Below are positions 16,228-38,612 of a DNA stretch of 64,000 bases, piece by piece. Source of the stretch: a virus; the IMG/VR virus record IMGVR_UViG_3300035670_000147, positions 1 through 64,000 of that record; one strand, given 5' to 3'. Position numbers and translations under genes: made by a program. The notes below the pieces were generated by a model. It was not told the origin of the DNA, searched no databases, and saw only the letters and a program-made list of their open reading frames with translations. Within the stretch, counting starts at the first letter, position 1; each line of letters begins with the position of its first letter.

Positions 16228-16299
16228 TGCCCGGTAGCACAATGGTAGTGCACGGCACTGTTAATGCTGGGGTTGTAAGTTCGAGTCTTACCCGGGCAG
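16228..16299 (+). tRNA. tRNA-Asn (anticodon GTT)
   Basis: The 72-nt sequence folds as a complete cloverleaf. The acceptor stem TGCCCGG/CCGGGCA has seven perfect pairs. The D stem is GCAC/GTGC with loop AATGGTA. The anticodon stem is CGGCA/TGCTG with loop CTGTTAA, giving anticodon GTT. The variable loop is five bases. The T stem is GTAAG/CTTAC with loop TTCGAGT. The discriminator is G, normal for Asn. CCA is not encoded. It is the only tRNA found in the window. Confidence 0.93.
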
Positions 16300-18572: not shown

Positions 18573-19607
18573 ATGGCTAAAGGACTCGACGTCGGAACTT
18601 CTTTTATCGTGCTGGCCTCGGACTCAGACGCCCCGATTAGTTACACCAGCGACGACAAGTTCGGGTACGTCAAATACACCGATTTCCGCGACGCCTTTTT
18701 CGTCATTAAGCCTACGACGCCAGTCGCCACGAAGATGATTGAAAAGGGCTTGCAGGGAAAAGTGTTCGTGAAAGACACGGACGGCTCATTTATCATTCTC
18801 GGTCAAGACGCGATCGAAAAAGCCATCGAGCGTAACGAGTCGGCCAAGCGCCCCATGTATCGCGGCGTTGTAAGCCCCAAAGAAAAAGAAGCGAAGCGCG
18901 TGCTGGCCTACATTCTCCAGCAGGTGTGCGGCCAAGCCAGCGAGCCGGACGAAAAGTTGGTGTTCTGTATTCCGGCCCAGCCCGTCGATCAAGAAGACGA
19001 CGAGTTTGATGTCGGATATCACGAAGATGTGGTCAAAACCGTGCTGCAGGGCCAAGGGTACAGCGCGCGGGCGATCAACGAGGCGGAAGCCCTGTGCTAC
19101 TCGGAGTTGGAGAACGACGATTACACTGGCGTGGCGCTGTCGTGGGGCGCCGGCATGGTGAACTGCTGCGTCATGCTCAACGGCGAGCCCACGGTGACGT
19201 TCTCGACCACGAAATCGGGCGACTGGATCGACCGCATGTCGGGCATTGCGACGGGCGAGCCGGATAGCGTCGTGCAGGCCGAGAAAGAAAATGGCGAGTT
19301 CGTAATTGGCGAACAGAATGACAATCCGGTTCTCGCCGCGGTCAGCGCCTACTATGAGCGGCTGATCGACTACACCACGAAGCAATTGGCAAATGCGCTC
19401 CGCGGGCACAAAGCCTTGCCCAAGTTCAAGAGTCCTTTGCTCGTCGCGTTAGCCGGCGGAACAACGCAGGCGCAGGGTTTTGTGGCGATGTTTGAAAAGA
19501 AACTGGCGGAGAATGAGTTTCCGTTGCCGGTCAAAGAAGTGCGCCACGCCGCAGACCCTTTACACGCAGTTGCCCGCGGTTGTTTGATTGCTGCCAAAGT
19601 GCTCTGA
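18573..19607 (+). CDS. Actin-like ATPase
   Basis: The protein has 344 residues, with GGAG 8-11 bases before ATG 18573. The actin/Hsp70/hexokinase nucleotide site is visible. The phosphate-1 motif is GLDVGTSFIVLA (residues 4-15). The phosphate-2 motif is VALSWGAGMVNCCVML (about 186-201). The adenosine motif is ALAGGTT (about 292-298). The length fits bacterial ParM/Alp-type actins rather than the longer Hsp70 or FtsA. Such proteins form ATP-driven filaments that move plasmids, prophage DNA or organelles. The protein may position phage DNA or capsids. The subfamily cannot be settled by eye. Confidence 0.75.
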   Translation: MAKGLDVGTSFIVLASDSDAPISYTSDDKFGYVKYTDFRDAFFVIKPTTPVATKMIEKGLQGKVFVKDTDGSFIILGQDAIEKAIERNESAKRPMYRGVVSPKEKEAKRVLAYILQQVCGQASEPDEKLVFCIPAQPVDQEDDEFDVGYHEDVVKTVLQGQGYSARAINEAEALCYSELENDDYTGVALSWGAGMVNCCVMLNGEPTVTFSTTKSGDWIDRMSGIATGEPDSVVQAEKENGEFVIGEQNDNPVLAAVSAYYERLIDYTTKQLANALRGHKALPKFKSPLLVALAGGTTQAQGFVAMFEKKLAENEFPLPVKEVRHAADPLHAVARGCLIAAKVL

Positions 19608-19691: not shown

Positions 19692-20147
19692 ATGCGCAAG
19701 CAGGCTTTTGATGGAATTATTATTGCACACCTTGGCAACACAGATGGGCGGCAACCGGAGTTAGAAAACACGCTGCCGTATATTCAAAAAGCGTTAAAAG
19801 AAGGCTGGCACGTTTGCGTCGATGTCGTATTTAAATACGGGCAATTTCTGTTACCGCACGCCCGCGGCCACTATGCCGCCCCGCCGGCCCTGCTTTCTAA
19901 GCAGCGTGTTTGGAGCCGCGCCTTTGACGCCGACACCGTCGACGCGTTGTGCAACATTGGCGCCCATTGTTTTTTACATAGCGACAATTTTATGTCGTTA
20001 ACAAGCGCGCAGTTTATTTTTACATTGCCGCCACATGTGCTTTCACCCCGATCGATCGCTATGTTTCCGGAAACAACTAGCGACGACTGGTTAAAAAATT
20101 TTGAGCCAGCGGGGCTATGCAGCAACGAGCCGCGCCGGTATATCTAG
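19692..20147 (+). CDS. Glycerophosphodiesterase/PLC-like TIM-barrel protein (degenerate)
   Basis: The protein has 151 residues. ATG 19692 is chosen because AAGGACG precedes it and the upstream frame lies in a terminator. The start, GIIIAHLGNTDGRQPELENT, matches the I-x-H-R-G-N-x-x-G...P-E-x-E-N-T block of a small GDPD-like family found in large phages and viruses. H-S-D-N-F-M-S-L-T-S later fits its H-x-D-D-x-x-L-T-S block. The usual Arg after the catalytic His is Leu here and other acidic residues are sparse, so catalytic activity is doubtful. Confidence 0.55.
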   Translation: MRKQAFDGIIIAHLGNTDGRQPELENTLPYIQKALKEGWHVCVDVVFKYGQFLLPHARGHYAAPPALLSKQRVWSRAFDADTVDALCNIGAHCFLHSDNFMSLTSAQFIFTLPPHVLSPRSIAMFPETTSDDWLKNFEPAGLCSNEPRRYI

Positions 20148-20177
20148 TCTCGTTCTTTGACAATTTGCCCGCACACG

Positions 20178-20198
20178 CTACCGGTCAAACCCCGGTAG
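20178..20198 (+). promoter_or_regulatory. 7-bp inverted repeat (operator or weak terminator)
   Basis: CTACCGG and CCGGTAG flank a 7-nt centre, 30 bp after the previous stop and just before a TATAAT box at 20203-20208. It could be an operator for that promoter or a short terminator followed by TTTG. Confidence 0.4.
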
Positions 20199-20202
20199 TT
20201 TG

Positions 20203-20208
20203 TATAAT
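20203..20208 (+). promoter_or_regulatory. Consensus -10 box before the structured RNA
   Basis: TATAAT is a perfect -10 hexamer, preceded directly by TTG. There is no clear -35 at 17 bp; a TTGACA at 20157-20162 is 40 bp away, too far to pair with it. Transcription would start near 20214, at the 5' edge of the closing helix of the RNA candidate. Confidence 0.4.
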
Positions 20209-20210
20209 TG

Positions 20211-20440
20211 GTGTGTACCGTAAGTTGACCGTGGTGGTCGGTCGGTTAGGGTTGGAGCCAACGCAGGGATGCGGCAGCGACAACATGGTTTCGTGGTCAG
20301 GTTTAGTCGTGAACACGATCGGAGGCGCGGCGAATACCACACAGGGCGAAATTCCTTGCCCTCGAAAGTTGCCGTGAAGCCTTGATTTTTATCAAGGTCG
20401 GACCCGCGGAAAGGGGATCGCGGGGGCTTGCGGTACACAC
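20211..20440 (+). ncRNA. Structured RNA candidate with a 14-bp closing helix
   Basis: In the 334-bp gap between genes, GTGTGTACCGTAAG (20211-20224) pairs with CTTGCGGTACACAC (20427-20440) with a single G-U. Inside are further helices: GACCG/CGGTC (20227-20243), GTTG/CAAC (20251-20262), GTGGT/ACCAC (20293-20340) enclosing TCGT/ACGA, AGGGC/GCCCT (20343-20362), CCTTGAT/ATCAAGG (20380-20397) and CCCGCG/CGCGGG (20403-20424). This is a multibranched fold of about 230 nt. No long frame crosses it convincingly. It could be a free RNA or a 5' leader controlling the gene at 20482. I could not match it to tmRNA or RNase P RNA by their conserved motifs. Confidence 0.6.
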
Positions 20441-20481
20441 CATTTTTGACAAAAGAAACGACATTTACTGGTTTACGGTCT

Positions 20482-20847
20482 ATGCTCGATGATTTTATTG
20501 CATCTTTATCCGTGTTTGCGGCCTCGTTCGGCGTTTCGGCGTTCGCGGGGTTGGCGACCCTTTTGCGTTTCAGCCGCAAACTTTCTAAACTAGCGATTAC
20601 CAGCGCAATGCTGAATTCGGGGTTTATGGGCCTCGCCATTTCGTTGATTTGGTACCAAAACTACCGAGAAGCCGCGAACATTCATGGGTTAATTGGTATT
20701 TGTGTCCTTGCCGGCATGGGTGGTTCCACGCTGACCGACGTTTTAATTTCTGTGCTGTCGGGCGCCGGCATCAAAGTCGTCATTAATCACGAGAGGGACC
20801 GCGATGAACTCCACTGCCCCCACGACAGCGAGCGATCCAATGATTGA
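20482..20847 (+). CDS. Holin-like membrane protein
   Basis: The protein has 121 residues from ATG 20482. It has about three hydrophobic helices (residues 5-28, 36-57, 68-92) and a charged C-terminal tail (HERDRDELHCPHDSERSND), a common holin layout. The region L-L-R-F-S-R-K-L...L-N-S-G-F-M-G-L resembles some annotated phage holins. A longer TTG start at 20428 would run through the RNA candidate and is rejected. The next gene overlaps it by 44 bp in another frame, as lysis genes often do. No endolysin is recognised nearby, so the call is tentative. Confidence 0.45.
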   Translation: MLDDFIASLSVFAASFGVSAFAGLATLLRFSRKLSKLAITSAMLNSGFMGLAISLIWYQNYREAANIHGLIGICVLAGMGGSTLTDVLISVLSGAGIKVVINHERDRDELHCPHDSERSND

Positions 20848-21025: not shown

Positions 21026-22948
21026 ATGGATGGCTTCTCTATTCTTGACGGCGTGTGGCGGAAACCGCTGACGAGCCAGCGCGAATACCACGTCGGCAAC
21101 GCGATTGGGTGGCTGGCGCGCACAGAAAAACAAGCCGCCACGCAACACGCCCTCGCCGGCCGGCTGTATGTGGCGAAAAGCGGCTGGCTACTCCTCTCGG
21201 TTCCGAACGCGCTGGTCCGGGGCGTCTACGACGCGATGACCGCCCCCGGCGCCGAACTTCCGCTGGCGGGCACTATGAATGTGCCCAACGTAGCCAGCGA
21301 TGTCTTGAACGCGCATATTTCGGTCATGACCGCCGAAGAAGTCAAAAAGATCGGCGCTGAAAATATCAATGAGCGCGGGCACATGGTCGGCTACTCGCTG
21401 GGCCACCTAAAAGAAATCACGCCGAGGAACGTTGCCGGCGTGAGCAAGGTCTGGGCGCTGCAGGTCTCGTCGCCCATGCTCTCGGCGATTCGTAAAAGTT
21501 ACGGGCTACAGCCGTTCGTAAATGGCCACCCGTTCCACATTACCGTTGCCGTGCGCCGGAAAAACGTGCTGCAGGCCAATAGCACGCGCAAAGCCGCGGC
21601 GGCCGCTAAAAGCCCGCAGCCCCGTGTGCGCGTCGTCGTGCCGTACAAAGACCAGTATTTGATGGAAACGCTCAATAACTCGAAGTGGCCTGAAAATATC
21701 GGCAAACGGCGATTTATCGGTGGCGGTATCGAAACGGGCGAAACACCAGAACAGGCCGCTGCGCGTGAGTTATTCGAAGAACTCGGCGTGAAGATCAAAC
21801 CGACCGCTTTTCGCGCTTTAGGTAACGATCCGCGCGAAGGATGGCAGCACGAGCATTATCTGGAACTGCCCAAGCACAAACTCAAGCCCGGAAATTTTAA
21901 CGCTACCGTTGGTTCTGACGCCGTGGTCACGCTTTCGCACGGGCTGCCCGAAGGCGACGATTATATGGGGCCAGACATCAAAAAACTGCTTGCTCCTGTT
22001 TTGAAGAAGGCAAATGACCTGCTTCACGGCGGCGCGGCAGACAATATGTCCGACAGTAAATTTCCCAAAGAAGAACTTGCCGAAGGAGCAGAGCATGAGC
22101 GCGAGCACACCGACAATGACCAAATCGCCAAAGAAATTGCCAAAGATCATCTGCAAGAAGACCCGGCCTACTACAAAAAAGTAGAGGCGATTGAAAAAGA
22201 CGCGGCTACAGCAGTGGTGCCGGTACCGCAGCCGCCGAAGCCGCCAGAAATGCGGGAAGATGTAACCGCCCCGCCTGAGATGCCCCCGCCCCCGACAGCC
22301 GACGTCGCGTTTGGTGTTGTCCCGCCGCCGGCTCTCCCGCCATCCGGGCAGCAACTCCAAAGCCCGCAGCAGACCCCAGAGCAAGAAGAGCAAGATAAAC
22401 AAGCAGAGTCTAAGGCGCTCTTGTTAGCCGAACTTCAAGCGGCAAAAGAGCACTCAGATAACAAGCGGTACGAACTAAAAACGCAAATTTTGCGGCGATT
22501 AATGCAACAATCGCCGCAAGACTGGCGTGTAGACGATCCAAAACCCTACCACAAAGGCATTACGCACGGGCCGACCAAGTTTAAGTTTCACGTCGAGCCG
22601 ACAGCGATTCCGGCGTCCGTAAAAGCCGCGGCCCGCCAGCCGCGCAGCGCGTACATGTCGGCGCTCTATAACTCGTACGGTCTGCATCGACCAATTACGT
22701 ACAACTACAACAAAACAGTTGCCGAAAACATTCAGGATCAAATGATGATGGTAAAGCAGCGCGGCGACTTCATGCGCAACGCTAAAATTAATCATCAGCG
22801 ATACATGGCCACGCTCGACCCCAAATACCGGTATGAGTTAGCAATGAAAGCCATGAATAACGAACTCGAAGAAGAGCCGATGGTCGACAAAATGATCGGG
22901 CGGTATGGCGATAGTTTTATGAACACGATTTTTGGGAGGCCGAAATGA
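21026..22948 (+). CDS. 2H phosphoesterase-like domain fused to a Nudix hydrolase
   Basis: The protein has 640 residues. The N-terminal domain holds two H-x-S/T-x motifs, His97 (AHISV) and His171 (FHITV), 74 residues apart, as in the 2H phosphoesterase superfamily (LigT/CPDase type). Residues about 205-320 are a Nudix domain with a full Nudix box, GGIETGE plus REL-F-EELG (residues 233-255). Residues 350-480 are acidic and Pro/Gln-rich. The last 150 residues are charged and unrecognised. The two enzymes together suggest handling of nucleotide derivatives such as ADP-ribose phosphates, cyclic nucleotides or RNA ends. The substrate is inference. Confidence 0.75.
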   Translation: MDGFSILDGVWRKPLTSQREYHVGNAIGWLARTEKQAATQHALAGRLYVAKSGWLLLSVPNALVRGVYDAMTAPGAELPLAGTMNVPNVASDVLNAHISVMTAEEVKKIGAENINERGHMVGYSLGHLKEITPRNVAGVSKVWALQVSSPMLSAIRKSYGLQPFVNGHPFHITVAVRRKNVLQANSTRKAAAAAKSPQPRVRVVVPYKDQYLMETLNNSKWPENIGKRRFIGGGIETGETPEQAAARELFEELGVKIKPTAFRALGNDPREGWQHEHYLELPKHKLKPGNFNATVGSDAVVTLSHGLPEGDDYMGPDIKKLLAPVLKKANDLLHGGAADNMSDSKFPKEELAEGAEHEREHTDNDQIAKEIAKDHLQEDPAYYKKVEAIEKDAATAVVPVPQPPKPPEMREDVTAPPEMPPPPTADVAFGVVPPPALPPSGQQLQSPQQTPEQEEQDKQAESKALLLAELQAAKEHSDNKRYELKTQILRRLMQQSPQDWRVDDPKPYHKGITHGPTKFKFHVEPTAIPASVKAAARQPRSAYMSALYNSYGLHRPITYNYNKTVAENIQDQMMMVKQRGDFMRNAKINHQRYMATLDPKYRYELAMKAMNNELEEEPMVDKMIGRYGDSFMNTIFGRPK

Positions 22949-25109: not shown

Positions 25110-25937
25110 ATGGCACGGAAGCCGAAACAGACAACTGAAAGCAAAAACGTCATTCCAACGAGTCAGGCGTTAAAGTATTTGTTCAACCTTGGATATTTCG
25201 GAAAAGACCCGTGGTCGAAGGTTCGGTCAATACGCGGCAAGGAACTGGAAAAGGCCATTGCTGCGTATCAAGAGTTTAACGGGATTGAGCCGTGCGGGTG
25301 TGTAAACGACGTGACGGCCCACCGATTCAATCGGCGGCGGTGCGGGCTGCCGGACTTCGGGCTCACAGACCCGAACGGCGAGCCGTGCAAGTGGCCGATG
25401 AAAAACATTACGTACTATCACGAAATTAAAATGCCGGGATTGAGCGACGAGCAGGTTCGTGAGGCGTATGACGTCGCGTTCAGTCAGTGGGCCGAGGTTT
25501 GCAACATTGAACCGACCCGCGTTGACAGCCCGGCTCGTGCCAACATTTATGCGCGTTCCGGGACCGGCCGAAAAAATCATCTCGATAATCGCGGCGGCAC
25601 ATTAGCGTGGAGTGAGTTACCGTGCGGCGTTCATGAAACTATTCAGTTAGACCAGATGTACGACGAGGCTGAGCCGTGGTCGTTTAACATGGCTATCGCA
25701 GTGATGTGTCACGAACTCGGACACGCGCTTGGCCTGCCGCATTTAAACGATGGTAATTTAATGGCCCCGTACTACGACCCGAATGTGACGGCGCCGCAGA
25801 AAGATGATATTAAAGAAATCGTAAAGTTATACGGGAAACGCGCGCAAAAGTACCCCATTACGAAAGACGCGTCGCTAAAAATTGGCGGCACAATCGTAAT
25901 TAACGGTCGCCCGTATGTACTCGTGCCAAAAACCTGA
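25110..25937 (+). CDS. Matrixin-type zinc metalloprotease with cysteine-switch prodomain
   Basis: The protein has 275 residues. Residues 15-70 resemble a peptidoglycan-binding-like three-helix prodomain. They are followed by RRCGLPD with Cys78, the form of the cysteine switch (PRCGxPD) that keeps matrix metalloproteases latent. The catalytic motif is HELGHALGLPH (His201, Glu202, His205, His211), and Met218 in NLMAP is the Met-turn. After about residue 250 a short strand-rich tail follows. No signal peptide is visible, so it may leave the cell by lysis or travel in the virion. The family call is strong; the substrate is unknown. It is one of at least three proteases here. Confidence 0.85.
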   Translation: MARKPKQTTESKNVIPTSQALKYLFNLGYFGKDPWSKVRSIRGKELEKAIAAYQEFNGIEPCGCVNDVTAHRFNRRRCGLPDFGLTDPNGEPCKWPMKNITYYHEIKMPGLSDEQVREAYDVAFSQWAEVCNIEPTRVDSPARANIYARSGTGRKNHLDNRGGTLAWSELPCGVHETIQLDQMYDEAEPWSFNMAIAVMCHELGHALGLPHLNDGNLMAPYYDPNVTAPQKDDIKEIVKLYGKRAQKYPITKDASLKIGGTIVINGRPYVLVPKT

Positions 25938-25943
25938 TAGAAT
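25935..25943 (+). promoter_or_regulatory. Extended -10 promoter candidate
   Basis: TG-A-TAGAAT overlaps the stop codon of the matrixin gene, 26 bp before the start at 25970. It matches the TGATAnAATC string before 10573. No -35 hexamer is obvious. Confidence 0.3.
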
Positions 25944-25969: not shown

Positions 25970-26251
25970 ATGACCCAGTTTCAAATGCTTGCACTTGGTT
26001 TATTTCTCGGCGTCACGGCTGTCGCCTACCGTAAAGAACTTGTTTCTTTGGCGAAAGCCCTGCTGAAGCGCGGCGGCGTTGAAACCCCCGCTGTACAGCA
26101 GTCGATCGCCGTGACGATCGTCGACGATCTTGTGTCTGTAACCGAACTCCGCGACAAATTGGCCGCAGAGGATTGCCCGCAGGGTGTTGAGGCGTGCACA
26201 AATTTACTGCGCGTAATCGTCGAACACATCCCGCCGGCAAAAACCGTCTGA
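25970..26251 (+). CDS. Small membrane-anchored protein
   Basis: The protein has 93 residues with AAGGAGA 8-14 bases before ATG 25970. Residues 4-20 are hydrophobic and form one N-terminal anchor. The rest is amphipathic and helical, with conserved-looking C-P-Q-G-V-E-A-C. No family is recognised. It begins a run of three small anchored or exported proteins (25970, 26276, 26722). Confidence 0.5.
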   Translation: MTQFQMLALGLFLGVTAVAYRKELVSLAKALLKRGGVETPAVQQSIAVTIVDDLVSVTELRDKLAAEDCPQGVEACTNLLRVIVEHIPPAKTV

Positions 26252-30246: not shown

Positions 30247-31263
30247 ATGGGCTACGCAGAAGACGGCAAAGAAATCATAAATAACATTGTGTTGGGCACC
30301 GGAGTCGGGGCCTCGGCGACGGGGCTGTATTATCTGGCCAAGAAACTGCGGAAGCGGTTTGAAGAGCAGTTGGCTAAGAATGCGCCCAATACGCCGGACT
30401 ATCACGACGTAGCCCTCGACGTGCCGAAACTCGAATCGCCTGCCCAGCCGAAGTTAGCATTTGACGCTTACAGTGTCGCGACACCTCTGGCTACTGGCGG
30501 TGCGAGCGCAATTCTGGCGGCGGCCCTGTCGAACAAAAAAAATAAACTTCGTAACGCCGCTATTGCAGGCGCGCTGGGTGCCGGCGCCGGCGCTGGTTTG
30601 AACACCAAGCCCGTGCACGAGTTTGTCGGTAAAAATATCCCCAGTTCTATCTTCCCGTTTCTCGAACCAGTTATGGGCGGCTCGTGGTTTGACCGCGGCT
30701 CTGGTTACAACGCTTGGAACGCCGCTTTGAATGTAGGTGGCGCCGGCCTTGGACTCGCAGGCGGAAAAGCCCTATACGACATGTCGGTCGCTCCGCAACT
30801 TGAGGTCGAGAAAAAGAAGGAGCACTACAACAGCGTAAACGACGCCCGTAAAAAATACTTTGACGCACTGCTGCGTGACGAAGACGACGACAAGAAGAGC
30901 GACAAGAAAGCCTCGGTAAACGACGCGCTCGAAGCCGCGTACACAGCCTACGCCGAAAAGAAAGCCGACTGGAAGGACTACATCAATCCGCTCAAACTGC
31001 CGCTATTAAAGCAGGTCTTTTACGACTTGCCCAACATGTACGCGGCGGCTGGCGTGGGCGCGACATTAGGTGGCGGCCTAATCGGCGGCAAATACATGTA
31101 CGACAAGACGATGGCGGCGTCAAAAGCCAAGAACTTGGCGAAAGCCCTCGCCGCCAAGGAGCGAATGAAAGATGCGCTGCCAGTGTGGGTCGACCCGCAA
31201 GAACTGGCGCAAATTAAAGACGTAGCCGCCGAGAAGGGCCTAGCCGCTGATCAAGGGGTGTGA
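30247..31263 (+). CDS. Gly/Ala-rich virion-like protein before the RNA polymerase
   Basis: The protein has 338 residues. There are hydrophobic Gly-rich segments near residues 12-30, 80-125, 155-180 and 260-285, between charged helical regions (KKKEHYNSVNDARKKYF, DEDDDKKSDKK). The composition is like the glycine-zipper proteins at 3502-7142. It lies 2 bp before the RNA polymerase start. If the polymerase is packaged, proteins like this could help to release it; that is speculation. Confidence 0.5.
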   Translation: MGYAEDGKEIINNIVLGTGVGASATGLYYLAKKLRKRFEEQLAKNAPNTPDYHDVALDVPKLESPAQPKLAFDAYSVATPLATGGASAILAAALSNKKNKLRNAAIAGALGAGAGAGLNTKPVHEFVGKNIPSSIFPFLEPVMGGSWFDRGSGYNAWNAALNVGGAGLGLAGGKALYDMSVAPQLEVEKKKEHYNSVNDARKKYFDALLRDEDDDKKSDKKASVNDALEAAYTAYAEKKADWKDYINPLKLPLLKQVFYDLPNMYAAAGVGATLGGGLIGGKYMYDKTMAASKAKNLAKALAAKERMKDALPVWVDPQELAQIKDVAAEKGLAADQGV

Positions 31264-31265
31264 CC

Positions 31266-34200
31266 ATGTCAGACCCGCTGCCCCCGCTGCGCGCCCCCGC
31301 TCCGTTTCCTCCCGCTCCAGCGCTCCCGCAGCCGACACCGCCACAAACGCGCGCATTCGGTGATGTTGGGGCTCTGCGCGACAGCATTTTTAACGAGGCG
31401 CTCCGCTCGGCGTCAGGGATCGAGCCGATTCAGAACGACCTGTATACGTTAAAGTTAACCAACGTCGCGTATACGGGTCCGGAACGCTACTCCCGTAAAG
31501 ACCAAAAGAAAGCGGTGTTAACTCGCGGCTCGTTGGCGCGAAAGTTAACAGGAACGTGGACTTTAATAGAAAATGGCTCGGAAAAGCCTGTCGCTACGCG
31601 ACAGGCTACTATAGCAAACGTGCCATATCTGACCGACTCGGGTACGTTTGTAAACAAAGGTGTCGAATACACGCTGGCACACCAACTCCGACTTCGGCCG
31701 GGCGTGTTCACGCGCGAAAAAGATAACGGCGAACTGGAGTCGCACGTTAACACGCTGCCGGGCAAGGGCCGCTCGCACCGGTATTACATGGACCCCAAAA
31801 CCGGCGAGTTTCAAATCCAAATCGGGCAGGCCAAGATTCCGCTGATGCCGCTGCTGAAGACGCTCGGCGTGCAGGAAAAGCAGATACGGGAAGCGTGGGG
31901 CAACGAGATCGCCTCTGTAAACATGCAGAAGGGCGATGCGGGCACGCTGGATAAACTTTACAGCCGCCTCGTGTTCAAGCCAGACCCCGCCGCAGATCAG
32001 TTAGCCAAGATCAAGGCTATCGCCGCGGAGTTCGCAAAAACAGAGTTAGACGAAGAGGTCACGAAACGAACGCTGGGCAAGCCGTACAAAAATCTCACGC
32101 CGGAAGCGATTCTCGACATCACCAAAAAACTCATCGCTGTTAATCGAAAAGAAGCCGACAGTGATGACCGAGACAGCATGACGTTTCAGCAAGTCTTTGG
32201 GCCGGAGGATTTGATATCAGAACGGTTTGTGAAAGATAAGACCGCGTTGCGTCAATTGTTGTGGAAAGCGACCGCAAAGAAGTCGCTCGACCATATTCCC
32301 AGCGGCGTATTTAACAAAGCCATTACCGCTGCGCTAATTGGCTCTGGGCTGGGTTCATCGCTCGAAGAAATTAATCCGGCAGAAATCTTTGACCATCAAA
32401 CGCGGGTCACCCGCCTTGGTGAGGGCGGCATTGGTTCGATGGACGCCGTACCGGCGGAATCGCGCAGCGTCCAGCCCAGCCATTTCGGGTTTATCGACTA
32501 CCTGCGCACGCCCGAGTCTGGCAAGGTGGGCGTCGACATGCGCTTCGCGTCGGGCGCCCGCAAGTTAGGTAATAACTTGCACACGTTTGTCGTGCCCGTC
32601 AAGAACGCTAACACTGGCGAGACAGAATATAAAACCCCGCAAGAACTGTCGGACATGCCGCTCATGTTTCCGGGCGAAGAGAAGTCCGACCTGCCGATGG
32701 TTGCGGCGCTTGTTAACGGCAAGATCAAATACGTGCCACGCAAGGACGCGCAGTACACCGTGCCGAACATGGACAACACTTTTTCGTCGCTGACAAACAT
32801 GGTGCCGATGAAAAGCATGGTAAAAGGCCAGCGCGTCATCATGGGCAGCCGCATGTTTACGCAGGCGCTTCCGCTTGAAAATGCTGAAGCCCCGTTTGTG
32901 CAGTCCGCTAAGTTTGATAGCGACGGGTCTATATCGCACGAAGACGAAATGGGCGAAAAGTTAGGCGCGATTAAAGCCCAAGTTGGCGGGCAGGTTCTGT
33001 CTGTCACGCCAGACGACATGGTTATTCGCGACAAGGACGGGCAAAAACACACGATAGACCTGTACAACGACATGCCGTTCAACCGAAAGACGTTTTGGAC
33101 GCAGACGCCGACAGTCAAGCCCGGCGATACGGTGCAGCCCGGCCAACTTATTGCCACAAGCAACTTTACTGACAAAAGCGGCTCGGCCGCGCTGGGGCTG
33201 AACTTGCGCGTAGGCTACACGCCGTTTCGTGGTCGGAACTATGAAGACGCGGTTGTGATATCTGAATCGGCGGCCAAGAAACTTACTAGCCAGCACATGT
33301 ATCAGCACGAAGCCGAGTGGGACGACAACACGCACGTCGGAAAAAAGTCTTTTTTGAGTTTGTTTCCCGCCGAATATGACAAGAAGGTGCTAGAAAACTT
33401 TGACGACAACGGCGCAATTAAAAAGGGTTCAATCGTAAACTTCGGTGATCCGCTTGTGCTCGTCGCCAAGAAGCGCGATCAGGTGTACGGCAAAGTACAC
33501 CGCGGCCGAGCGGGTGCTTTTGCAAATGAAACAATTACGTGGGAACATCATTCTCCGGGCGTTGTGACTGACGTTGAGCACACAAAAAAGGGCGTATCGG
33601 TCGTCGTGAAGTCGCAGGCGCAGATGGAGGTTGGCGATAAAATTACGGGTCGTTTCGGCGATAAGGGCGTTGTGTCTGAAATTGTGCCGGACGACCAGAT
33701 GCCGCAGGACGCGAAGGGTCGCCCGCTTGAAATTCTGGTCAGTCCGCTCGGCCTTATAAACCGCGTAAACCCGGCGCAAATTATTGAAGCGGCTCTCGGA
33801 AAAGTTGCCGAAAAAACTGGCAAGCCGTTCAAAATCAAAGACTTCGACAACGACAATGATTTGATCGAAATGGCGATGGCTGAGTTGACTAAAAACGGTC
33901 TGACAGACACCGAAGACCTGATAGACCCCGAGACTGGGCGCAAGATTCGCGGCGTGCTGACTGGCAATCGTTTCTTTATGAAACTGCACCATACGGCAGA
34001 GTCGAAGGGGCAGGGGCGGTCTATTGGTGGTTACACGGCAGAAGGCACGCCGGCAAAAGGCGGCAGCGAAGGCGCCAAGCGTGTCGGCATGTTGGAACTG
34101 GGTGCGCTTCTTTCGCACGGTGCCGGCAAAGTAGTCCGCGACGCCAAAATGGTGCGCGGACAGGCTAACCCTGAGTATTGGACGCAGTTCATGGCCGGTT

Positions 34201-35696
34201 ACGACCCGCCGCTGCCCAAGGTGCCGCACGTCTACGAAAAGTTTGTGAATCAATTGCGAGGCGCCGGCGTTAACGCAGTTCGGACCGGTACGAAAACGCA
34301 CATCATGGCGCTGACCGACAAGAACATCGACGAGTTAGCGGGCGACCGTGAAATCCAGAACGCCGAAACCGTGGATTGGAAGGGCAACCTTAAGCCCGTA
34401 AAGGGCGGGTTGTTTGACGAAACACTCACCGGCGGGCATAACGGCAATCGCTGGTCAAAAATAACATTGCACGAACCGATGCCGAATCCAATCATGGAAG
34501 AACCAATTCGGCGTACGCTTGGGCTGACAGAAAAGAAATTTCGCGCGATACTCGCCGGGCAAGAAAAACTGGGCGACAAAACTGGCCCGACAGCAATTCA
34601 CGAAGCGTTGAAAGCCGTTAACCTGCCGCGCGCAATCGAACAAGCGCGTGCTGATATTAAGTCTGGTCGCCGCACACTGCGCGACGCGGCGGTGCGTCGC
34701 TTGGCGTTTTTGAAGGGCGCCGAAGCAACGGGCGTGCACCCCAAAGACTGGATGCAAACAAAGGTAGGCGTCTTGCCGCCGGCATTTCGCCCCGTGTCGA
34801 CGATGGGCGCAAAAAGAATGCAACTTATCGACGACGCAAACTATTTGTACAAAGAACTGCTTGATTCAAATAACGTGCTGAAAGAAGCGTCTGGATTACT
34901 GTCGGATGTGGGCAACGAGCGGCTGTCGCTGTACGACTCGATGAAAGCCGTCTCAGGTTTAGGCGACCCGCAGCACCCGAAAAACGTCGAGCGAAATGTC
35001 CGCGGATTTTTGTCAAAGATATTTGGTGATAGCCCCAAGTTCGGCACGATGCAGCGCAAGTTGTTGTCGAGCACCGTCGATCTTGTAGGTCGTGCGGTAA
35101 TTTCGCCCAACCCAGACCTCGACATGGACGAGGTAGCGCTGCCCGAAGACAAGGCGTGGGAGATTTACAAGCCGTTCGTGGTTCGCGGCCTTATTCGGCG
35201 CGGAATGCCGCGCATGAACGCGCTGCGCGCCGTTGAAGAACGCAACAAAGAAGCGTTTGCTGAGTTAAATACGCAGATGGGGTCGAAACCAATTGTTATT
35301 AACCGCGCTCCGGTGCTGCATCGATACGGCGTAATGGCGTTTTACCCGCGTCTTACCAAGAACAAAGTCATGGAAGTCAACCCGGTTATTACCAAGGGGT
35401 TCGGGGCCGATTTCGACGGCGACGCGATGCAATATCACGTCCCCAGCACCGACGATGCCGCGAAAGAAGCCATAGAAAAAATGCTGCCTAGCCGCAATTT
35501 GTTTGCGGCGTCCAACTTTAAAGCGCATTACGTGCCCAACAAAGATTACCAAACTGGTGTATACTTAGCGTCCAGCAAGATTAATAGCAAATCAAAACCG
35601 CGCGTATATCGCACCAAAAAAGACGCTCTCGCGGCCTACCGCCGCGGTGACATCGATGTAGACACGCCGGTACATATTGTGGAAGATAAAGCCTGA
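31266..35696 (+). CDS. RNA polymerase beta subunit fused to the N-terminal half of beta-prime
   Basis: The protein has about 1476 residues; ATG 31266 follows AAGGGG, and GTG 31260 is an alternative. The beta landmarks appear in order: VPYLTDSGTFVNKGVEYTLA (protrusion), a rifampicin-pocket-like R-V-T-R-L-G-E-G-G region, RPENYED-type GRNYEDAVVISE, and GDKITGRFGDKGVVS. The beta C-terminal region ends near residue 1000. Beta-prime landmarks follow: GLFDETLTGG, VLPPAFRP, and N-R-A-P-V-L-H-R-Y-G before GADFDGDAM, with the three Mg-binding aspartates 1382, 1384 and 1386. The protein ends just before the beta-prime region that precedes the bridge helix. The beta-prime zinc ribbon is missing. It would form the core of a phage RNA polymerase with the product of 36660. 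Confidence 0.93.
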   Translation: MSDPLPPLRAPAPFPPAPALPQPTPPQTRAFGDVGALRDSIFNEALRSASGIEPIQNDLYTLKLTNVAYTGPERYSRKDQKKAVLTRGSLARKLTGTWTLIENGSEKPVATRQATIANVPYLTDSGTFVNKGVEYTLAHQLRLRPGVFTREKDNGELESHVNTLPGKGRSHRYYMDPKTGEFQIQIGQAKIPLMPLLKTLGVQEKQIREAWGNEIASVNMQKGDAGTLDKLYSRLVFKPDPAADQLAKIKAIAAEFAKTELDEEVTKRTLGKPYKNLTPEAILDITKKLIAVNRKEADSDDRDSMTFQQVFGPEDLISERFVKDKTALRQLLWKATAKKSLDHIPSGVFNKAITAALIGSGLGSSLEEINPAEIFDHQTRVTRLGEGGIGSMDAVPAESRSVQPSHFGFIDYLRTPESGKVGVDMRFASGARKLGNNLHTFVVPVKNANTGETEYKTPQELSDMPLMFPGEEKSDLPMVAALVNGKIKYVPRKDAQYTVPNMDNTFSSLTNMVPMKSMVKGQRVIMGSRMFTQALPLENAEAPFVQSAKFDSDGSISHEDEMGEKLGAIKAQVGGQVLSVTPDDMVIRDKDGQKHTIDLYNDMPFNRKTFWTQTPTVKPGDTVQPGQLIATSNFTDKSGSAALGLNLRVGYTPFRGRNYEDAVVISESAAKKLTSQHMYQHEAEWDDNTHVGKKSFLSLFPAEYDKKVLENFDDNGAIKKGSIVNFGDPLVLVAKKRDQVYGKVHRGRAGAFANETITWEHHSPGVVTDVEHTKKGVSVVVKSQAQMEVGDKITGRFGDKGVVSEIVPDDQMPQDAKGRPLEILVSPLGLINRVNPAQIIEAALGKVAEKTGKPFKIKDFDNDNDLIEMAMAELTKNGLTDTEDLIDPETGRKIRGVLTGNRFFMKLHHTAESKGQGRSIGGYTAEGTPAKGGSEGAKRVGMLELGALLSHGAGKVVRDAKMVRGQANPEYWTQFMAGYDPPLPKVPHVYEKFVNQLRGAGVNAVRTGTKTHIMALTDKNIDELAGDREIQNAETVDWKGNLKPVKGGLFDETLTGGHNGNRWSKITLHEPMPNPIMEEPIRRTLGLTEKKFRAILAGQEKLGDKTGPTAIHEALKAVNLPRAIEQARADIKSGRRTLRDAAVRRLAFLKGAEATGVHPKDWMQTKVGVLPPAFRPVSTMGAKRMQLIDDANYLYKELLDSNNVLKEASGLLSDVGNERLSLYDSMKAVSGLGDPQHPKNVERNVRGFLSKIFGDSPKFGTMQRKLLSSTVDLVGRAVISPNPDLDMDEVALPEDKAWEIYKPFVVRGLIRRGMPRMNALRAVEERNKEAFAELNTQMGSKPIVINRAPVLHRYGVMAFYPRLTKNKVMEVNPVITKGFGADFDGDAMQYHVPSTDDAAKEAIEKMLPSRNLFAASNFKAHYVPNKDYQTGVYLASSKINSKSKPRVYRTKKDALAAYRRGDIDVDTPVHIVEDKA

Positions 35697-36659: not shown

Positions 36660-38612
36660 GTGCTAAAAACCACCCTCGGCCAGTTAATGATTAACGAAGC
36701 GCTTCCTGAAGACATGCGCGATTACGAGCGCGTGTTGGACAAGAAGACTATGGGCGCGCTGGCGACTGATCTGGCAAAACGATATCCGGATCGTTATCGC
36801 GAGGTGATGAAAAAAATTCACGACGTCTCTCGCGACGTGGCATACACGACGGGCGGTCTTTCGATGGGCTTGAAGGACATTCGCCCCACGTTTGCCAGCC
36901 AACACGCGCAAATTAAAGTGCGCAAAGAACTGCGGCAGATTCTGGCAGACACGAGTTTGTCAGACAAAGAACGCGAGTTGCGAATCCTCAAACTCGCCGC
37001 CGAGACGCAGCAGAAACTTGTCGAAGACGTATTTAACGAAGCCCGCGACGCGAATAACCCGCTTGCCCATCAAGTGCTGGCCGGCGCGACTGGTAACAAA
37101 TTCATGTTAAATTCGCTACTGGGCGCCGACCTGCAATACGTAGACCACCGCGACCAGCCGATTCCGCTGCCCGTAATGCGGAGTTACAGTCGGGGCTTAA
37201 CTCCTGCAGAGTACTTCGCGGCGTCTTTCGGCACGCGTAAGGGTGTTATTGACGTAAAGACTGCCACAGCAGACGCCGGATTTTACGGCAAGCAACTAAC
37301 GCAGATGGCGCACCGTTTACTCGTTACAGCCGACGATGACGACGACGAAGACAGGCTTAGAACTGCGCACAATCGCGGCCTGCCGTCCGACGTCGACGAT
37401 CCGGACAACGAAGGCGCTTTTTTAGCGCGACCTGTGGGGCCATACAAGCGAAACACTGTACTGACGCCCAAAATTCTCAAAGATATCAAAGCGATGGGCG
37501 TAAAAGATATTTTAGTGAGAAGCCCGCTCGTCGGTGGGCCAGAAGATGGCGGCGTGTACGCCAAAGACGTCGGATACCGCGAAAAAAGTCGGGTGCCGCC
37601 GGTCGGCGATTATGTCGGCATTGCCGCTGCGCAAGCGCTGTCTGAGCCAGTCTCGCAATCGCAACTATCGTCTAAGCACTCGGGCGGTGTTGGCGGCGCA
37701 AAGTCTATTTCTGGCTTCAAGGCTATCAACGCGCTAGTACAAGTGCCGCGCAAATATCCTGACGGCGCGACGCACGCTCAGCGCGAGGGTCGCGTGCAGG
37801 AAATACGCCCGGCGGCGCAGGGCGGATTTTATGTCACGGTAGACGGCGAAGATCATTACGTCCCGGCCGACCGGCAGGTCTCCGTAAAAAAAGGCGACGT
37901 GCTGGAGGCCGGCGACGTGCTGTCCGACGGCATGCCAAACCCGGCCGAAATTGTTAAGCACAAAGGCGTCGGCGAGGGCCGTAAATACTTTGTGCAGGCA
38001 ATGCGCCAAGTTTTAGGCAACTCAGGTATCACCGCTCAGCGCCGAAACATTGAACTCGTGGCGCGGGGTTTGATTAATCACGTTCGGCTGACCGACGAAT
38101 ATGGCGATTACGCTCCGGACGACATTATTCCGTATTCCATGCTTGAGCGCTCGTGGCGCCCGCGCTCCGGAGCCGTGGCGTCAGCGCCCAGCGCGCTTGT
38201 AAATCATTATTTGGAAGAACCCGTACTGCACTACTCGGTCGGCACAAAAATAACAAAAAGCGTCGCTGACAATTTAAAGAAGTACGGTATTGCAACAGTG
38301 CAGGCTCACAAGCAGCCGCCGCCGTTCGAGTCAGAGATGGTGCGCGGCATGGCGAATATATCGAACGACCCCGACTGGATGACCCGCATGCTGGGTTCTT
38401 ATCAGGAGCGCGGGTTTTTAAACAGTGTTCACCGCGGACTGGCCAGCGACACGGCCGGCAGCAGTTACGTTCCGGCGCTGGCACGAGGCGAAGAATTTGG
38501 CAATTCTGGCCCCACAAGCGGCTGGAAACCTGCGCCGCCCTCCGGTAGCATATTGCAGCCCGTCCCCAAGCCCCCGACAAGTCCGCTAGGCTCTGAGCCA
38601 AAAACACTGTAA
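36660..38612 (+). CDS. RNA polymerase beta-prime subunit, C-terminal half
   Basis: The protein has 650 residues from GTG 36660. It opens with TTLGQLMINEALP, the sequence that in bacterial beta-prime follows the first half (TTVGRxxLNExLP). The bridge helix is clear at about residues 178-220 (RGLTPAEYFAASFGTRKGVIDVKTATADAGFYGKQL, written in two parts in nature as R-x-G-L-T...G-A-R-K-G). The trigger-loop region near residues 325-350 has QLSSKHSGGVGG, in place of the bacterial TFHxGG. ARGLINHVRLTD fits the clamp-side C-terminal region. With 31266 it completes the two large subunits. No alpha, omega or sigma gene is seen in the window. Confidence 0.92.
   Translation: MLKTTLGQLMINEALPEDMRDYERVLDKKTMGALATDLAKRYPDRYREVMKKIHDVSRDVAYTTGGLSMGLKDIRPTFASQHAQIKVRKELRQILADTSLSDKERELRILKLAAETQQKLVEDVFNEARDANNPLAHQVLAGATGNKFMLNSLLGADLQYVDHRDQPIPLPVMRSYSRGLTPAEYFAASFGTRKGVIDVKTATADAGFYGKQLTQMAHRLLVTADDDDDEDRLRTAHNRGLPSDVDDPDNEGAFLARPVGPYKRNTVLTPKILKDIKAMGVKDILVRSPLVGGPEDGGVYAKDVGYREKSRVPPVGDYVGIAAAQALSEPVSQSQLSSKHSGGVGGAKSISGFKAINALVQVPRKYPDGATHAQREGRVQEIRPAAQGGFYVTVDGEDHYVPADRQVSVKKGDVLEAGDVLSDGMPNPAEIVKHKGVGEGRKYFVQAMRQVLGNSGITAQRRNIELVARGLINHVRLTDEYGDYAPDDIIPYSMLERSWRPRSGAVASAPSALVNHYLEEPVLHYSVGTKITKSVADNLKKYGIATVQAHKQPPPFESEMVRGMANISNDPDWMTRMLGSYQERGFLNSVHRGLASDTAGSSYVPALARGEEFGNSGPTSGWKPAPPSGSILQPVPKPPTSPLGSEPKTL

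Follow-up and report, generated by a model that had tools for sequence, protein, structure and literature searches.

We describe a phage RNA of about 230 nt that appears to represent a new class and that most likely, at a probability of about 0.5, forms the 5′ leader of a lysis mRNA, in which it may act in cis as an autonomous domain. Comparison of its copies shows that the RNA lies on the + strand, is non-coding and is always joined to a holin-like gene, and it was found in one lineage of large uncultured phages that have their own multisubunit RNA polymerase. The window, by which we mean the whole 64,000-nt stretch of DNA that was analysed, comes from a 73-kb IMG/VR record with one copy. The original prediction of an RNA at this locus had overlooked its pseudoknot, its strict linkage to the holin-like gene, a boxA-like motif and hairpin upstream of it, and the RNA polymerase genes of the phage.

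Architecture of the RNA

The RNA of about 230 nt is organized around a closing helix of 14 bp with one G-U, formed by GTGTGTACCGTAAG (20211-20224) and CTTGCGGTACACAC (20427-20440), whose arms are 202 nt apart. Six arms surround the junction and a pseudoknot joins a loop to an internal loop (Table 1). Both the helix and the claim of at least six internal hairpins made in the original prediction were borne out, the latter by stem-loops P2-P7, every arm of which was confirmed in relatives. Positions 20208-20443 fold at -108.3 kcal/mol, a stability reached by none of 200 dinucleotide-shuffled sequences (-82.3 ± 4.9 kcal/mol; z -5.3).

Table 1. Coordinates of the RNA, its parts and the neighbouring elements in the window
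Feature	Coordinates	Strand	Remarks
boxA-like motif GTTCTTTGACAATTTG (consensus GYTCTTTGACAAYYYG)	20152-20167	+	only match with 0 mismatches in the window
Hairpin CTACCGG...CCGGTAG	20180-20200	+	between boxA-like motif and -10 box
-10 box TATAAT (TAAAAT/TAAACT in relatives)	20203-20208	+	abuts closing helix
Structured RNA	20208-20443	+	match to covariance model R1, 234.5 bits
P1 5′ strand	20211-20226	+	pairs with 20425-20440; both-side changes in 13/15 pairs; 95% of cells paired
P2 hairpin, loop 20232-20238	20227-20243	+	100% of cells paired; both-side changes in 4/5 pairs
Pseudoknot 5′ strand, within P2 loop	20234-20238	+	pairs with 20336-20340
P3 arm, near-invariant CA-GGGA-UG tip (GNRA-like tetraloop)	20257-20278	+	arm length varies
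P4 arm	20291-20318	+	98% paired
P5 (20327-20333/20369-20375) and inner helix P5a (20343-20348/20357-20362)	20327-20375	+	100%/98% paired; both-side changes in 11/13 pairs
Pseudoknot 3′ strand	20336-20340	+	internal loop of P5
P6 hairpin	20379-20398	+	both-side changes in 8/8 pairs
P7 hairpin, invariant GGGGA loop	20403-20424	+	98% paired; 20404-20423 and 20405-20422 above phylogeny-aware null
P1 3′ strand	20425-20440	+	20218-20433, 20220-20431 and 20221-20430 above phylogeny-aware null
Holin-like gene, always directly downstream of RNA	20482-20847	+	PHROG holin matches; linkage 80/80

Covariation and conserved residues

In 51 distinct copies, canonical pairs make up 97.0% of the 3,461 pair cells and 51 of the 68 pairs have changes on both sides, a result as good as which was obtained in 0 of 500 shuffles; when, as a control, one strand was slid by 1-3 columns, pairing was only 34-43%. 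Against a tree-based null of our own making, in which the substitutions of each column are redistributed over the tree, 11 pairs were significant at E ≤ 0.05, every one of them within predicted helices. Covariation of the closing helix, a check proposed before any relatives had been collected, proved decisive, with both sides changed in 13 of 15 pairs. The 5 bp of the pseudoknot (20234-20238/20336-20340) are paired in 100% of the 51 distinct copies and three of the five have both-side changes: U-A, C-G and U-G alternate at two positions, and at a third G-C becomes A-U in one copy. When additional pseudoknots were sought, none stood out except that of the P2 loop.

Outside the pairs, 39 positions are conserved in 96% or more of the copies. 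The main stretches are GGUUAG (20244-20249), GGA (20267-20269), GGUCAG (20295-20300, partly paired), GG-GG (20321-20325), AAU..C.CAC (20333-20342, partly pseudoknot), GAAAGU (around 20364-20369) and GGGGAUC (20413-20419). Invariance of this degree suggests tertiary folding or a surface for binding.

The pair cells include 463 of G-U and 27 of A-C, from which we place the RNA on the + strand; an RNA on the minus strand is ruled out by this bias. The same imbalance bears on whether the locus might be a DNA element, for example a signal for replication or packaging, with inverted repeats that merely look like RNA. Inverted repeats are indeed numerous and there is a single copy per genome, but it is the pairing of one strand that has been kept, via U-G intermediates, and we disfavour this reading as very improbable. 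Could the locus instead be coding sequence, with structure that arose by chance? Open frames do occur in the window (20117-20377 and, antisense, 20178-20639), but in no frame do more than 7 of the 53 copies stay open, and the copies (227-238 nt) differ freely in length, over all three classes modulo 3. The overlapping frame 20117-20377, whose conservation had been named beforehand as evidence against an RNA, is not conserved, its RNA part being open in only 15 of the 53 copies. The coding reading is refuted by the relatives, and we consider its chances negligible. As judged from alignment, the element is a structured noncoding RNA, in that its compensatory changes go beyond chance and phylogeny and no reading frame is conserved.

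Distribution and searches for known relatives

The same RNA was found in about 80 viral contigs, many of them 150-205 kb long. Copies were gathered from viral contigs by searching with the neighbouring proteins (volactin and the holin-like protein), with a holin alignment and with DNA patterns, of which two independent ones were used. A covariance model trained on 41 of the copies detects a single strong one in each genome of about 200 kb. Four extra pattern matches (L228, L229, L232 and L234) were dismissed as chance by the covariance model.

No real match was found in Rfam (4,227 families), with ARAGORN, in 50,697 phage records or in 84,980 prokaryote genomes. At the Rfam 15 gathering threshold (tmRNA, RNase P, 6S, GOLLD, ROOL, OLE, riboswitches and others included) the whole window gives only a tRNA, and the sole ARAGORN match in it is tRNA-Asn at 16228-16299; the expectation that the RNA would be unlike tmRNA and RNase P was thus upheld, and the covariance search against Rfam proposed alongside it matched no family to the RNA. 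The element gave no match to Rfam at E ≤ 10, ribozyme families included, and three divergent relatives searched permissively gave only chance-level matches, far below cut-offs. Cultured phages had no match by DNA or by holin protein. The pattern scan of cellular genomes, which demands an exact match to one motif, returned two chance matches, of which one falls in a repeat tract and the other in a gene that appears to encode a ribosomal protein. The covariance model gave nothing strong in distant volactin phages; in LR745208 and LR756511 the RNA had no convincing match, the polymerase no match, and a holin was lacking. Nor is the RNA described in the literature searched, a body that excludes preprints and most subscription journals. 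Taken as a class, the RNA appears to be new and to fit no described RNA family; its mechanism may be of a known kind.

Linkage to a holin-like gene

The gene downstream is probably holin-like, on weak profile matches: 12 of 13 members of its family match a PHROG holin family (best 9.8e-5), the window member alone with E 0.51. Its product probably starts cell lysis. As had been stated for the window, the gene follows the RNA by 41 bp, its ATG lying at 20482, 41 nt past the helix. The RNA is directly upstream in 80 of the 80 holin-like loci examined, and the start codon lies 13-55 nt (median 29) beyond it. There was no holin gene without the RNA, and the cases of RNA only are truncated contigs. 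The gene before the RNA varies (orf165, volactin or insertions of 2-4 kb), whereas the gene after it is constant.

By position, the RNA lies where a riboswitch or leader would, 5′ of a gene that shares its strand. The spacer contains no terminator and no second promoter that we could find, and is too short for an obvious promoter. No expression platform, whether a terminator or a sequestered ribosome-binding site, was found, and masking of the ribosome site was not seen: for the stretch ahead of the start codon, the mean probability of pairing with the RNA is only 0.06, which we count in favour of an autonomous domain.

Elements upstream of the RNA

The perfect -10 box claimed ahead of the first helix strand is present, and about 42 of 51 copies have a -10-like hexamer with the same spacing to the closing helix. 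One clade has its -10-like box about 20 nt further upstream and an extra hairpin in the gap, a shift that fits the box setting the 5′ end of the RNA. The extra hairpin, often GAAA-capped, is seen at L048:10100-10160 and also in L042, L056, L059, L064 and L162. Elsewhere in the window, TGnTAnAAT motifs occur at 25935-25943, 10527 and 11023, all on the + strand and some of them intergenic; that at 25935 sits just before the gene at 25970. The motif is possibly a phage promoter element.

Further upstream, the boxA-like GYTCTTTGACAAYYYG occurs in 40 of the 51 distinct copies, 44-102 nt ahead of the RNA, and is missing from 11. At most such loci it is followed by a hairpin, the arm sequences of which differ (mean z -1.7, individual z to -7.8).

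In nut sites the order is boxA and then a hairpin (PMC6614801), and where a leader is long and untranslated, boxA relieves termination by Rho (PMC4807359). Here GYTCTTTGACAAY resembles boxA and has a hairpin after it, as in the nut order (PMC6614801), but the motif precedes the RNA, 11 of the 51 copies lack it, and the phage has its own RNA polymerase. On this resemblance, 20152-20200 is a possible nut-type antitermination site, and a working boxA-like motif would shield read-through transcripts as they cross the untranslated RNA.

Leader, stand-alone RNA or riboswitch

How might such an RNA act? Three roles had been offered originally, namely a small regulatory RNA, a ribozyme-like element and a leader of the holin gene, and it is the leader that the 80/80 linkage and the spacer of 13-55 nt favour. 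Also counted for it are the varying upstream gene, the lack of a terminator in so short a spacer and the abutting -10 box. The adjacent -10 box would set the start of transcription at about 20214, and the RNA, as the evidence supports, would fold as an independent domain. Since there is no terminator and little space in the spacer, we infer that transcription runs on into the holin gene, in which case the lysis mRNA would have the RNA as its 5′ leader, which might later be trimmed off at the closing helix. The autonomous domain may, more tentatively, bind a protein, RNA polymerase or a ligand in cis, and one could speculate that the bound factor tunes the timing or level of lysis-gene expression.

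Against a leader, gene order is conserved lineage-wide, so the holin linkage could be inherited rather than functional. The missing switch devices are, moreover, atypical for a regulatory leader, and a stand-alone RNA fits them equally. The main rival is accordingly a noncoding RNA that acts in trans, has its own promoter and is trimmed or terminated near the closing helix, the holin gene being merely adjacent; it might be, for example, a regulator or an RNA that binds a protein or polymerase. Such an RNA would account for the -10 box at the 5′ end, for 5′ and 3′ ends that pair together, for folding that is independent of the downstream gene, and for the conserved unpaired positions, which are as in other large ornate RNAs. 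However, no terminator follows the RNA, and in 80 loci it is never apart from the holin gene, though its upstream side takes insertions. Because there is neither masking of the ribosome site nor a terminator, this stays a serious rival, which we regard as possible at well under even odds.

A riboswitch that binds a ligand and controls the holin gene would share the leader position, and the near-invariant junction and loop residues and the loop-to-loop pseudoknot would suit it. Against it, the RNA has no Rfam riboswitch match at any threshold, shows no terminator or ribosome-site masking, and occurs upstream of one gene only, in a single copy per genome, and we find this reading quite improbable.

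Genome context and the phage RNA polymerase

The phage encodes volactin (18573-19607), an actin-like protein (PF25216, 2e-58), a single protein with 2H phosphoesterase (2H-SAK), NUDIX and DUF5661 domains (21026-22948) and a matrixin (25110-25937). Volactin homologues that are 32-36% identical occur in phages of 485 kb and 595 kb. The phage also encodes a multisubunit RNA polymerase, of which one part (31260-35696, 1478 aa) has Rpb2 and Rpb1 domains and is a beta/beta-prime fusion and a second (36660-38612) has Rpb1 domain 5. The polymerase is present in 16 of the 16 RNA-bearing phages tested, and the RNA-less relatives examined, mostly contig fragments, showed neither polymerase nor holin. It is conceivable, if unlikely, that the RNA is a dedicated binding partner of this polymerase, put-like or 6S-like, which reprograms or restrains it as it enters the lysis genes; if true, that would tie lysis timing to late transcription.

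Phages have so far yielded few large RNA folds that are tightly conserved, and most of these have no known role. The present RNA offers a deep alignment, a pseudoknotted secondary structure, a -10 box next to the 5′ end and one neighbour gene that stays constant and probably serves in lysis, a function that can be assayed easily; its role can therefore be tested directly. Since the phages carry their own multisubunit RNA polymerase, it may also show how such phages time late expression.

Comparison with known systems

Cobalamin-type riboswitches have a closing helix, a multi-branch core and a loop-loop pseudoknot, all of which the present RNA shares, but it has no Rfam match, no expression platform and a single target gene. 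By functional analogy it comes closest to the lambda late leader that precedes gene S and to the put and EAR antitermination RNAs. The lambda late leader (the '6S' RNA from pR′) is an untranslated stretch of about 200 nt between the late promoter and the holin gene S, and ends at a terminator that is overcome by protein Q. The likeness lies in the untranslated stretch of about 200 nt ahead of a holin gene; the difference is that the present RNA has a highly conserved fold, which to our knowledge the lambda leader is not known to have, and no terminator that we found. The antitermination RNAs, HK022 put and Bacillus EAR, are structured nascent RNAs within a transcription unit, and the present RNA could likewise act in cis on RNA polymerase as a structured nascent RNA, although homology to them was not detected. 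Finally, GOLLD and ROOL are large and intricate noncoding RNAs linked to phages and prophages (PMC12286853); as here, they have pseudoknots and numerous unpaired residues that are conserved. They are much longer, and the present RNA matches them in neither sequence nor structure and is tied to a holin-like gene in one lineage; we see the resemblance as one of kind, that of a conserved ornate phage RNA, and not of sequence.
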